Shown piece by piece: positions 50,706 to 54,184 of a stretch of DNA of 64,000 nt. Under the pieces are notes generated by a model. That model had not been told where the DNA came from. It worked only from the letters and a program-made list of their open reading frames with translations, and ran no database searches. This DNA is from a virus: positions 1 to 64,000 of the IMG/VR virus record IMGVR_UViG_3300025133_000040; one strand, given 5' to 3'. Each line of letters starts with the position of its first letter. The first letter of the stretch is position 1. The position numbers were made by a program, and so were the translations under genes.

Positions 50706-53030
50706 TTACACGATACACGCACCTCCTGCGCAGGCTATCGCCTCTTCTGGTGCTGTGTTGTCTTCCGTTTCAATCATAAGAAGGTAATCTACCTTCTGGA
50801 AGCTCTCTTTTAGGTCGCAATATCGTTTCCAGTTGTACACGTCCTTTAGGCAGTACGTCAGTTTTTTAGTGTCGTCACCAAAATATTTCTTAGCATACTT
50901 CTTTGCATTTCTCATAAAGTTTAGTCGCTTTGCAGCCAACTCAGCTATCTTGTGAAACTCTTCAACAGTTTCAGCATCGCCATCGAACGCATCCTTCCAC
51001 TGGTCATTCAGGATAAAGTCACAAGCCGCCCACAGGTCTTCGTCGAACACCTTTAAGGCGTCCTCAATAAGCCCTGAGGTCCATATAGCAGCGTCACCAT
51101 ACTCTCTCACGATTTCCTTGGAGGTGTACACAGCCGTGAACGGTGCCTGTTTGTAGTCCTTGTCGCCTGATTGGGGCAGCAAAGAGATACCGCAAAAGTA
51201 TTCTCGGTTACCGTAGATAAACTTGGAAACATCACCCCATTCATCTGGTTGGACCGTTATAGTATTACTCACATTATGACGTAGCCAGGGTTGTGTACAC
51301 AGGGATTCCCTTGTGCCTGCCTCAACCCAGTTTTGCTGAGTGCTTTTAACCAGTTTGAGTAGGTCAACAGCCGCCATTTGGTTTTTAGTCTTCGCTCCGT
51401 TAGGAACTTCAATAGGGAAGTAGATAACGTCGTCTGTTTTATTGGCTGACCACACCGATTCTTCGCACGCCTTAGGGTTCTTCATCTTGAAGAACTGATA
51501 AGGGGCTTCGTCTTTGTTGGCTTGCACCAGTCTCAAGTATCTCTTCGCATGGTGGGGGTGGATGCCTGAGCTAGTACCTAGCACACAACTTGATGTGCCT
51601 TCTGGCTTTAAGCATGTAGCACGAGCGGCTTGGTTGATGCCTATAGCCTTGGCTATCCTCTTGTTTGTGTCAAGCACAACCTGAGCACCCTCTCTTTGAA
51701 TCTTAGGGTCAAGCACAATGTCGGTCTTCTCCATTGTACCTGTCATAGAGACACCTAAAAGGGCCTCTCGTCTAAATATAGCTTCCGAAGTAGCCCCCAA
51801 GTACGGGAACGAGGTGAACCCAGCTTGGAGAGTGCCAATAATTGCTGCGGCTTTACAGCGTTCAAGGAAATCTTCTTTGTCTTTGACCGAACCAGAGTTA
51901 ATGGTACAGAGATTACATCCCTGCCAGCCAGACTTGAGGCCAATTTTTCCAAGGTCGCCTGTGTATCCTCCACCTTTGTACTTCTCCATGTAGGCGTCAT
52001 ACTTTGCTTGGTCTACCACGTCGTAGCACCAGAACTGAATCTCAACACACGGATTAAACAGGGCTTCCTCGTCGTCGGCCCAGACAAACCCAGGCTCACC
52101 AAATTGCTTTGTATGCTCAAGCAACGCATTGAACTGCTCAAAGGAAGTCTTGCCACGAATAAGGATAGCTGAGTTGTTTGAACGAGCACGCTGAGGGTTC
52201 TCCTTGCGCCAGTTGCCAGTCTTAGCCCGAGCCATTTCCAAGTCGTCAGGACTGAAGATAGCAATAGTTGCTGAGCGTCGTACGCCGCCACTTAACACAG
52301 CGTCGGAGGTGTGCATACATAAGTCGTAAGCGTCGATGGGTCGTAAGCGAGTCTGGCCATCTGTGATACAGCGGTCTAGCAGCTCACGAATCTTCTCAAG
52401 GGAATTGCGTAGGCCGTCAGGACCAGGAGCTTTACCAGTACCAGCACTCAGGCGAGCACCTTTTTCTCTAATCTTACTGTAGTCAAATTCTACCTTGCCG
52501 CACTTGTCAGGGTCGTATTCAGCAAACTCTTCCATACCCTCTTGGACACCGAAGTAATTAGTAAGCAAGACACCTAGCGCATCTGACCAGCCCTCAATAG
52601 TGTCTGGTATCTCATATGTTTTCACATTAGACTGCACGCCTACATAAAATGACGGCAGCTTAGCGACGTGGTGCTTCTGAACACTGAACCCTGCTCCACA
52701 ACCACATAGCAAGAGCCAAAAGAACTCCTGAAAGAAACGGGGGCGGTCGCAGTAGCTTGACACGCAATTAAAACAGCGAGCGTGCTTCTTCATCATTGGC
52801 TTACCGCCAAACTGCAATGCTCGCTGACTTCCTAGGACACGTTTCTTGTGGGACATGTCATACGCCCAATTAATATCTTCCTCAATATTAAATTCAGAGT
52901 ACTTGTCAAGCATCATACTTCGTACTCTGTCAATGGCTTCCTTCCAAGTCTCTCTTCTGTACTCTTTCTCTATCCACCTTGCGTACTTCGCTGTAAAGGT
53001 GTAACTCATTAGCTCTTGTGTTACCGACAT
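50706..53030 (-). CDS. Class II (B12-dependent) ribonucleoside-triphosphate reductase
   Basis: A 774-residue monomeric class II RNR, close in length to Lactobacillus RTPR (739). RALQFGGKPMMKKHARCFNC (about 70-90) holds the first redox Cys; FNPCVEIQF (about 328) is the active-site region with the thiyl-forming Cys; GCNLCTINSGSV (about 378) follows; YLGATSEAIFRREALLGVSM is the later conserved strand. The C-terminus CAGGACIV gives the exchange Cys pair. It uses adenosylcobalamin and makes dNTPs without oxygen or a second subunit. It is preceded by a small gene and a structured RNA. Confidence 0.9.
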   Translation of the reverse strand: MSVTQELMSYTFTAKYARWIEKEYRRETWKEAIDRVRSMMLDKYSEFNIEEDINWAYDMSHKKRVLGSQRALQFGGKPMMKKHARCFNCVSSYCDRPRFFQEFFWLLLCGCGAGFSVQKHHVAKLPSFYVGVQSNVKTYEIPDTIEGWSDALGVLLTNYFGVQEGMEEFAEYDPDKCGKVEFDYSKIREKGARLSAGTGKAPGPDGLRNSLEKIRELLDRCITDGQTRLRPIDAYDLCMHTSDAVLSGGVRRSATIAIFSPDDLEMARAKTGNWRKENPQRARSNNSAILIRGKTSFEQFNALLEHTKQFGEPGFVWADDEEALFNPCVEIQFWCYDVVDQAKYDAYMEKYKGGGYTGDLGKIGLKSGWQGCNLCTINSGSVKDKEDFLERCKAAAIIGTLQAGFTSFPYLGATSEAIFRREALLGVSMTGTMEKTDIVLDPKIQREGAQVVLDTNKRIAKAIGINQAARATCLKPEGTSSCVLGTSSGIHPHHAKRYLRLVQANKDEAPYQFFKMKNPKACEESVWSANKTDDVIYFPIEVPNGAKTKNQMAAVDLLKLVKSTQQNWVEAGTRESLCTQPWLRHNVSNTITVQPDEWGDVSKFIYGNREYFCGISLLPQSGDKDYKQAPFTAVYTSKEIVREYGDAAIWTSGLIEDALKVFDEDLWAACDFILNDQWKDAFDGDAETVEEFHKIAELAAKRLNFMRNAKKYAKKYFGDDTKKLTYCLKDVYNWKRYCDLKESFQKVDYLLMIETEDNTAPEEAIACAGGACIV

Positions 53031-53040
53031 TGTTAATCCG

Positions 53041-53310
53041 TTATGTTGTTTTCTTTGCTTGTTGTTTCTCAGCGTACTTAGATGCTTCCCTGGCTAGTTT
53101 GTCAGCGGCCTTGCCCTTAGGTAGTTCGCTCTTAGCTGCTGACGTTCTTCTTTTGTTTCTGCGGGGCTTGCCTTGATACTTAAGGTAGAAATCTGAGATT
53201 GCGCCTGCATCATCAGACCTAAGCACTTTACGTTGACCAGTAGGATTTCCTTGAGCATCTTTTACGTACAAAACCAACTCAAAGTTTTTACTATCTTGTT
53301 TTTCCTTCAT
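53041..53310 (-). CDS. Small basic protein before RNR
   Basis: An 89-residue protein with a beta start (FELVLYVKDAQGNPTG) and a very basic, disordered second half (KPRRNKRRTSAAKS, KYAEKQQAKKTT). GAGAGGA precedes the ATG. It ends ten bases before the RNR start, so the two are co-expressed from the RNA leader upstream. Function unknown. Confidence 0.55.
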   Translation of the reverse strand: MKEKQDSKNFELVLYVKDAQGNPTGQRKVLRSDDAGAISDFYLKYQGKPRRNKRRTSAAKSELPKGKAADKLAREASKYAEKQQAKKTT

Positions 53311-53328: not shown

Positions 53329-53360
53329 AAAAAAAGACCCGCCACACGAGATGACGGGTC
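53329..53360 (-). terminator. Intrinsic terminator just before the RNR operon
   Basis: On the - strand GACCCG (53360-53355) pairs with CGGGTC (53341-53336) with a 13-base loop, followed by seven T (53335-53329). It ends about 19 bases before the ATG at 53310, so RNR expression from upstream must read through it. Confidence 0.85.
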
Positions 53361-53552
53361 GTAATTTTTGACAGCGACACAATTAAGTTTTGGACCTTCT
53401 GTGATACTGGGTTAAAGTTGCTCAACGGTAGTTAACACGTTTTTCTTGTCAATGTTTAAGTATCATCACGGTCCAGAGTGTGGGTCGGAGAGGTGTCGCT
53501 GTAACGGGCGTTATTGAAAATGCTGCCGCTCTTTATGTTCCCCGACTATCTT
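53361..53552 (-). ncRNA. Structured RNA leader of the class II RNR operon
   Basis: This gene-free stretch folds as nested stems on the - strand: ACAGCGACAC (53502-53493) with GTGTCGCTGT (53380-53371), 10 bp; TGGACC (53475-53470) with GGTCCA (53396-53391); TGATACT (53465-53459) with AGTATCA (53408-53402); GTTAA (53436-53432) with TTAAC (53415-53411). A GGTGTATAAT motif starts it and a terminator ends it. A GACCC at 53486-53482 could also pair with the terminator 3' arm, so an attenuator is possible. Either a free small RNA or a riboswitch-like leader. I see no cobalamin box. Confidence 0.6.
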
Positions 53553-53562
53553 ATTATACACC
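53553..53562 (-). promoter_or_regulatory. GGTGTATAAT motif starting the RNA leader
   Basis: On the - strand GGTGTATAAT (53562-53553); the TAA stop of the dCMP deaminase gene lies within TATAAT. No -35 box at the usual distance. Confidence 0.55.
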
Positions 53563-54150
53563 TGGAAAAGTCATCTCTCGGAATAACATTTTCCCAAATG
53601 CTAAGTGTTTAAATATTTCCATAAAAACTACGTAATCTTCTGTCTCTGCGGCCTTATGTGGGCGTCCAGCGTGTATCACCTCCACAACACCGGCCTGTCT
53701 CATAAGCATTGTACAGTATTCACAGGTAAGGTTGGTGACATACACCTTGGAGCCCTTAAGGGATGTTCCATTGTAGGCAGCGTTGCAGATACCGTTAGCT
53801 TCTGAGTGTACCATCCACTCATACTTAGCCTTGAGCCTACCTGTTTCATCTCTCATGTTAGGTAAAACAGAATCGTCGAAATCCCTGGGGAAACCATTGT
53901 AACCAGTGACTAGCTCTTTGTTATCCCTTACGAAGACACAGCCAACTTTTGTTTGAGCGTCATGGCTACGCTTAGCAACGTCAAAGGCCCTACCCATAAA
54001 GAAAGTGTCCCAGCAGGGCCTCTCGTGGGGGACTTGAAATTCCTTGTATTCCTCAAGGCGTTTTCTAGCTGCGGAGGATAGCTTAGGAGGTCTGCTAACA
54101 GCCCTGCCTTGCCATACCCCATCTTCTGTATAATATGATTCCCTTGCCAT
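53554..54150 (-). CDS. dCMP deaminase
   Basis: A 198-residue deoxycytidylate deaminase. The zinc site is HSEANGICNAA (about 113-123; His and Glu) and TCEYCTMLM (about 137-145; two Cys). GYNGFPRDF (about 86) matches the substrate loop of the family. It makes dUMP for thymidylate synthase. The N-terminal 45 residues are an addition to the usual length. The ATG lies six bases after TATACT and has no ribosome site, so the message is predicted to be leaderless. Confidence 0.88.
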   Translation of the reverse strand: MARESYYTEDGVWQGRAVSRPPKLSSAARKRLEEYKEFQVPHERPCWDTFFMGRAFDVAKRSHDAQTKVGCVFVRDNKELVTGYNGFPRDFDDSVLPNMRDETGRLKAKYEWMVHSEANGICNAAYNGTSLKGSKVYVTNLTCEYCTMLMRQAGVVEVIHAGRPHKAAETEDYVVFMEIFKHLAFGKMLFREMTFPGV

Positions 54151-54156
54151 GTCTAA

Positions 54157-54184
54157 AGTATAGACTTGGAACCCTTAAAGTCAA
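54157..54184 (-). promoter_or_regulatory. Sigma70-like promoter TTGACT-16-TATACT for dCMP deaminase
   Basis: On the - strand TTGACT (54184-54179), 16 bases, TATACT (54162-54157), then six bases to the ATG. The TGA stop of the DUF1353 gene (54183-54181) lies inside the -35 box. Same hexamers and spacing as at 49252. Confidence 0.7.

Follow-up and report, generated by a model that had tools for sequence, protein, structure and literature searches.

The roughly 220-nt RNA that fills the gap between a phage dCMP deaminase gene and the genes for a basic protein and a class II (B12-dependent) ribonucleotide reductase (RNR) may be a cis-acting attenuator of transcription, built like a riboswitch, that controls read-through into basic protein and RNR, a reading to which we give about an even chance of being right. 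In folding predictions, a G-rich strand at the 5' end of the RNA has two mutually exclusive partners, both in this phage and in a divergent homologue. RNR sets the DNA precursor supply for phage replication, and a strand contested by pseudoknot and antiterminator in two distant phages would represent a new, uncatalogued attenuator class.

Locus, fold and relatives of the RNA

The window, i.e., the whole stretch of 64,000 nucleotides analyzed, forms part of a virus record of 111,831 bases. On the minus strand, the genes follow the order dCMP deaminase, 89-aa basic protein, class II RNR, PhoH and HNH protein, with a 242-nt gap separating the first two (Table 1). An earlier note on this DNA had described a gene-free stretch in front of the RNR operon that folds into stems and ends in a terminator, and this description proved accurate. 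The gap is non-coding, P2 is an exact 10-bp stem and the region's sole inverted repeat of at least 9 nt, both inner stems of the apical domain are present, and the intrinsic terminator is strong and lies 18 nt upstream of the basic protein ATG. The apical hairpins are weaker than the inner stems, and a search for direct (tandem) repeats in the window RNA found none.

Elsewhere in the window (37561-32900, minus strand), DNA polymerase III alpha is encoded in two ORFs, a PHP and NTPase half and a finger and HHH half, separated by an ORF for an RNase_T exonuclease. Also present in this virus record (L052) are a tmRNA (L052:14083-14437, minus strand), a GOLLD RNA (L052:1774-2267, minus strand) and about 30 tRNA genes.

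Table 1 Coordinates of the features discussed; positions refer to the window unless a locus is given.
Feature	Position	Strand	Remarks
Sigma-70-type promoter TTGACT-16-TATACT, just before the deaminase	54157..54184	-	Matches the promoter class of this phage at 12/12
dCMP deaminase gene, upstream of the RNA	53554..54150	-	Pfam dCMP_cyt_deam_1 4e-18; stop 53556-53554
Non-coding gap, 242 nt, dCMP deaminase to 89-aa ORF	53553-53311	-
5' G-strand GUCGGGG, common partner of pseudoknot and antiterminator	53540..53546	-	Predicted
Conserved block GGGGAAYAUAAAG	53531..53543	-	L023 copy differs only by C/U
P1 hairpin AGCGG/CCGUU, loop UCAAUAA (53517-53511)	53503..53530	-	Prefix folds; loop common to L023
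P2 5' arm ACAGCGACAC	53493..53502	-	Exact inverted repeat; double-sided changes vs L023
C-strand CUCCGAC (P2 loop), pairs with the G-strand in the pseudoknot	53484..53490	-	Predicted
Apical domain, stems TGGACC/GGTCCA and TGATACT/AGTATCA	53392..53475	-	Fold; variable, much shorter in L023
Conserved unpaired AAAACUUAAU, before P2 3' arm	53382..53391	-	Identical in L023
P2 3' arm GUGUCGCUGU	53371..53380	-	Exact inverted repeat
Intrinsic terminator	53329..53360	-	Hairpin 53360-53336, then T7; same place in L023
89-aa basic protein gene	53041..53310	-	ATG 53310
Class II (B12-dependent) RNR gene	50706..53030	-	PF21995 9e-7, phrog_367 1e-91
PhoH gene	50722-49907	-
Motif B	L110:3905-3974	+	Also L093, L104, L107, L122, L130, L131, L137, L140
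Motif B, further loci	L142, L143, L147, L149, L151, L152, L153

A divergent, shorter homologue of the RNA occupies the same gap between deaminase and basic protein in a second phage, L023, whose proteins share 58% (RNR), 39-43% (basic protein) and 36% (deaminase) identity with those of the window. In the RNR of this phage (L023:5001-8186), NPC is followed by an insertion of ~300 aa resembling an intein. Aligned globally, the two gaps scored 39.3 against a shuffle mean of 9.7 (sd 7.3), a value reached by none of 2000 shuffles; the local conserved block alone was not significant (199/3000 shuffles). The unpaired blocks GGGGAAYAUAAAG, UCAAUAA and AAACUUAAU and the terminator are common to both RNAs. 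The window RNA folds only modestly better than shuffles (z = -1.8, with 8 of 200 shuffles equally good; z = -1.4 without the terminator), and the homologue gives z = -4.1 with and -2.1 without its terminator.

Compared with L023, the stems show double-sided changes that preserve pairing. In P2, two of nine aligned pairs carry double-sided changes and none is broken; the same type of change is seen in 2/8 pairs of the terminator and in 1/5 pairs of the predicted pseudoknot described below, all counted in a hand alignment; an automatic alignment misplaced the P2 3' arm. Covariation is expected in any terminator. The changes in P2 and in the pseudoknot rest on two distinct sequences, the window type and L023, which are too few to establish a class. 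Two 98%-identical contigs (L002 and L003) carry the RNA unchanged and, at 1.5-2% divergence, are uninformative.

Of 99 RNR loci whose upstream sequence was long enough, only 4 showed the RNA signature, and these were window-type contigs or L023. Exact 16- and 18-mer scans returned only L002, L003 and chance matches, and scans for GTATAAT..GGGGAANATAAAG and GGGGAAYATAAAG..CAATAA recovered the stem together with the CTTAAT block only in the window group and L023. BLAST in the phage collection gave no convincing match, and the arrangement is absent from RHph_I1_18 and KLEP7, the best-matching isolates of that collection. A conserved-block search in 27 large relatives yielded chance matches only, outside L023, and an RNR search of genome contigs yielded one locus, which lacks the RNA.

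In sixteen viral relatives, a different conserved hairpin of ~70 nt, motif B, lies between dCMP deaminase and RNR, directly upstream of the latter, with the pattern GGCCCUUGC..CUCUAACC-AUGAUUUAUCAUA-..UAUGA..AAUCA-..GGGCC and an outer stem that covaries (columns G-C, U-A, A-U and C-G, G-C). It matches no Rfam family. Identity with the window RNA was rejected, since the motif B model R1 scores 55-88 bits on its members and 5-6 bits on the window and L023. Yet other short stem-closed elements are located just upstream of RNR in L091, L097, L109, L114, L132, L138 and L154. The region upstream of RNR seems to turn over quickly, and the occurrence of motif B besides the window RNA suggests that RNA control of RNR is common among such phages.

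Predicted pseudoknot and antiterminator pairings

The 5' G-strand (AGGGG in L023) is complementary to the C-strand of the P2 loop (CCCCU in L023), which lies ~2 nt inside the loop in both RNAs, and the resulting pseudoknot pairing comprises 7 bp in the window and 5 bp in L023. A duplex as good was obtained in 121/3000 (window) and 76/3000 (L023) loop shuffles, and in 6/3000 and 111/3000 shuffles of the 5' end, respectively. When both RNAs were folded only to the terminator 5' arm or loop, the G-strand region paired with the terminator arm, at predicted probabilities of ~0.7-0.99 in the window and 0.4-0.97 in L023. Pairing with the first 16 nt covered 6.9 of 10 nt of the terminator arm in the window and 5.4 of 8 nt in L023. 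This antiterminator pairing was reached by 3/400 (window) and 7/400 (L023) leader shuffles, which lends it moderate support; with the 5' 16 nt alone shuffled it was reached in 26/400 and 49/400, so that the G-run accounts for part of the pairing. The antiterminator helix of L023 is made up differently, of GGAAU/AUUCC plus GG/CC and AGA/UCU. Both phages place an intrinsic terminator between the leader and the basic protein and RNR genes, and in both homologues an alternative helix is predicted to sequester one terminator arm.

The earlier note had envisaged a switch in which GACCC at 53486-53482 competes with the terminator 5' arm for the same GGGTC. GACCC is indeed present, but this competing pairing amounts to only 5 bp and is absent from the folds. 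The strand predicted to be contested in both homologues is the 5' G-strand (53546-53540), not the terminator 3' arm. The C-strand overlaps GACCC, and C-strand and terminator 5' arm are alike in the window, with CGACCC in both.

Pseudoknot energies are estimates that include an assumed penalty of 7-9 kcal/mol. By these estimates, the antiterminator lies ~3-8 kcal/mol below the pseudoknot state until the terminator completes, and the completed terminator lies far below both. The estimated energies along transcription fit a switch.

In the proposed attenuator, RNA polymerase would arrive from the promoter ahead of the deaminase gene, and the terminator 5' arm would pair with the G-strand before the terminator 3' arm is made. 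With this energetically favoured antiterminator in place, the polymerase would continue into the basic protein and RNR genes. If something stabilised the pseudoknot that G-strand and P2-loop C-strand form next to AAYAUAAAG and AAACUUAAU, the terminator arm would be freed, transcription would stop and RNR would be lowered. Candidate triggers are a metabolite of dNTP synthesis, the RNR cofactor, or the co-occurring basic protein bound to its own leader. The basic protein may act as such a trigger, since it was found only beside the RNA in the loci examined (window-type contigs and L023). The gap, stems, terminator, homology and complementarity are evident from the sequences, all structures being predictions, and from these we infer the exchange of states, the response of the polymerase and the trigger. 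That the RNA represents a phage-only new riboswitch class, in which binding of a dNTP-pathway metabolite or of adenosylcobalamin to the pseudoknot attenuates the phage B12-dependent RNR, appears rather unlikely to us.

Promoters and rival explanations

The promoter motif that the earlier note had assigned to the RNA itself, GGTGTATAAT at 53562-53553, is present but corresponds to the Gly-Val-stop of the deaminase (GGT GTA TAA) plus one base. GGTGTATAA encodes this terminal Gly-Val-stop, an ending common to most RNR relatives, and in most of those with the same gene order the deaminase ends in GGTGTAT or GGTGTAA; the motif is conserved as coding sequence. No -35 was found at GGTGTATAAT, where 'cgagag' stands at the 16-nt spacing used by the promoters of this phage, and the promoter scan does not list the site. 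The same motif is found just upstream of the phage tmRNA and of a tRNA gene, and the copy at the tmRNA, too, has no -35 and supplies the G-V-stop of an ORF. An own promoter for the RNA is therefore doubtful; a weak internal start at the deaminase stop codon is conceivable, given that the motif also precedes the tmRNA and the tRNA gene.

The promoter class of the phage reads TTGACT(CCA)-16 nt-TATAMT, with GTG preceding the second hexamer in many members. Written as TTGACTCCA..GTGTATAMT with 16-nt spacing, the class is phage-wide and lies nearly always on the minus strand (G000 44175-111489). The member located just before the deaminase is the best candidate for the promoter of a unit comprising deaminase, RNA, basic protein and RNR. 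No promoter with a -35 between RNA and RNR was found by the promoter scan, and in L023 a strong promoter before the deaminase was not seen. Taken together, the missing -35, the coding nature of the motif and the 12/12 promoter before the deaminase make the RNA most simply a 3' UTR or leader within a deaminase-RNR unit. Transcription of basic protein and RNR seems to require that polymerase reads through the terminator.

The earlier note had left the choice between a phage small RNA and an RNR-controlling leader. A small RNA acting in trans, stand-alone or derived from a 3' UTR, would arise if transcripts of the deaminase or of a weak stop-codon promoter ended at the terminator, and such an origin would agree with a folded RNA bracketed by TATAAT and a strong terminator and with the motif's placement before tmRNA and tRNA. 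We consider it improbable, since the coding motif lacks a -35, basic protein and RNR would be left without a visible promoter, and the RNA adjoins the RNR locus in both phages. A leader is the better reading, in line with the homologue in the same place in L023, the double-sided stem changes and the conserved terminator, whereas the own promoter of the note found no support.

Alternatively, the basic protein might bind the pseudoknotted RNA and set the read-through of its own operon, in the extreme as a pair resembling a type III toxin-antitoxin system. Protein and RNA co-occur exactly, although in two lineages, and the linker and tail of the protein are basic. For the protein, AlphaFold predicts a beta hairpin plus helices at modest confidence. 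Pfam, PHROG and PADLOC returned no significant match to the basic protein, nor did a structure search (best PDB E 0.57), the RNA is devoid of tandem repeats, and ToxN-type toxins are much larger than 89 aa; autogenous control or such a pair is a tentative and not very probable explanation, even though the order of RNA, terminator and protein is like that of type III loci (PMC8860590 and PMC5772629 for that class). A zinc-ribbon ORF, considered for homology to the basic protein, turned out to be unrelated. A plain constitutive terminator with partial read-through, the remaining fold being incidental, would be compatible with the modest z-scores of the window RNA and the ease with which G-runs and C-runs pair; it is very improbable, as P2 and the unpaired blocks are kept in L023, where deaminase identity is down to 36%.

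Comparison with known RNAs

The attenuator reading was set against known RNA families. Across all families of Rfam 15, the window RNA gave 0 matches at the gathering threshold, and in a relaxed scan its best matches were terminator-like sRNAs at E 0.1-1, i.e., at chance level, with L023 behaving likewise. Cobalamin riboswitches are known leaders of B12-related genes, and class II RNR uses AdoCbl as its cofactor. Neither the window RNA nor L023 matched the cobalamin riboswitch at the gathering threshold or at E up to 10, in agreement with the earlier note, which had seen no known riboswitch consensus. An HDV-like ribozyme was rejected by comparison with the HDV helix order, as the window hairpin precedes P2 rather than lying inside it.

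The nrdJ RNA motif is named as an Rfam prediction (PMC8388888); its name implies an association with class II RNR, and the window RNA gave no match to it in the Rfam 15 scans. Type III toxin-antitoxin loci of the ToxIN kind share with the window a pseudoknotted RNA, predicted in the window, followed by a terminator and a protein gene. The window differs from them in having no RNA repeats, no match to the ToxN, CptN or TenpN families (Pfam, PADLOC) and a smaller protein.

In Mesoplasma florum, the leader of a ribonucleotide reductase gene is a 2'-deoxyguanosine riboswitch, its fold a variant of that of guanine riboswitches, and one of its strands serves either the ligand-binding fold or an antiterminator, the bound state permitting the terminator (PMC12268651). 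The window RNA differs from it in matching no Rfam purine family, in its predicted pseudoknot and in its unrelated conserved blocks. Like it, the window RNA lies ahead of an RNR gene and, by prediction, has one strand split between a fold and an antiterminator.
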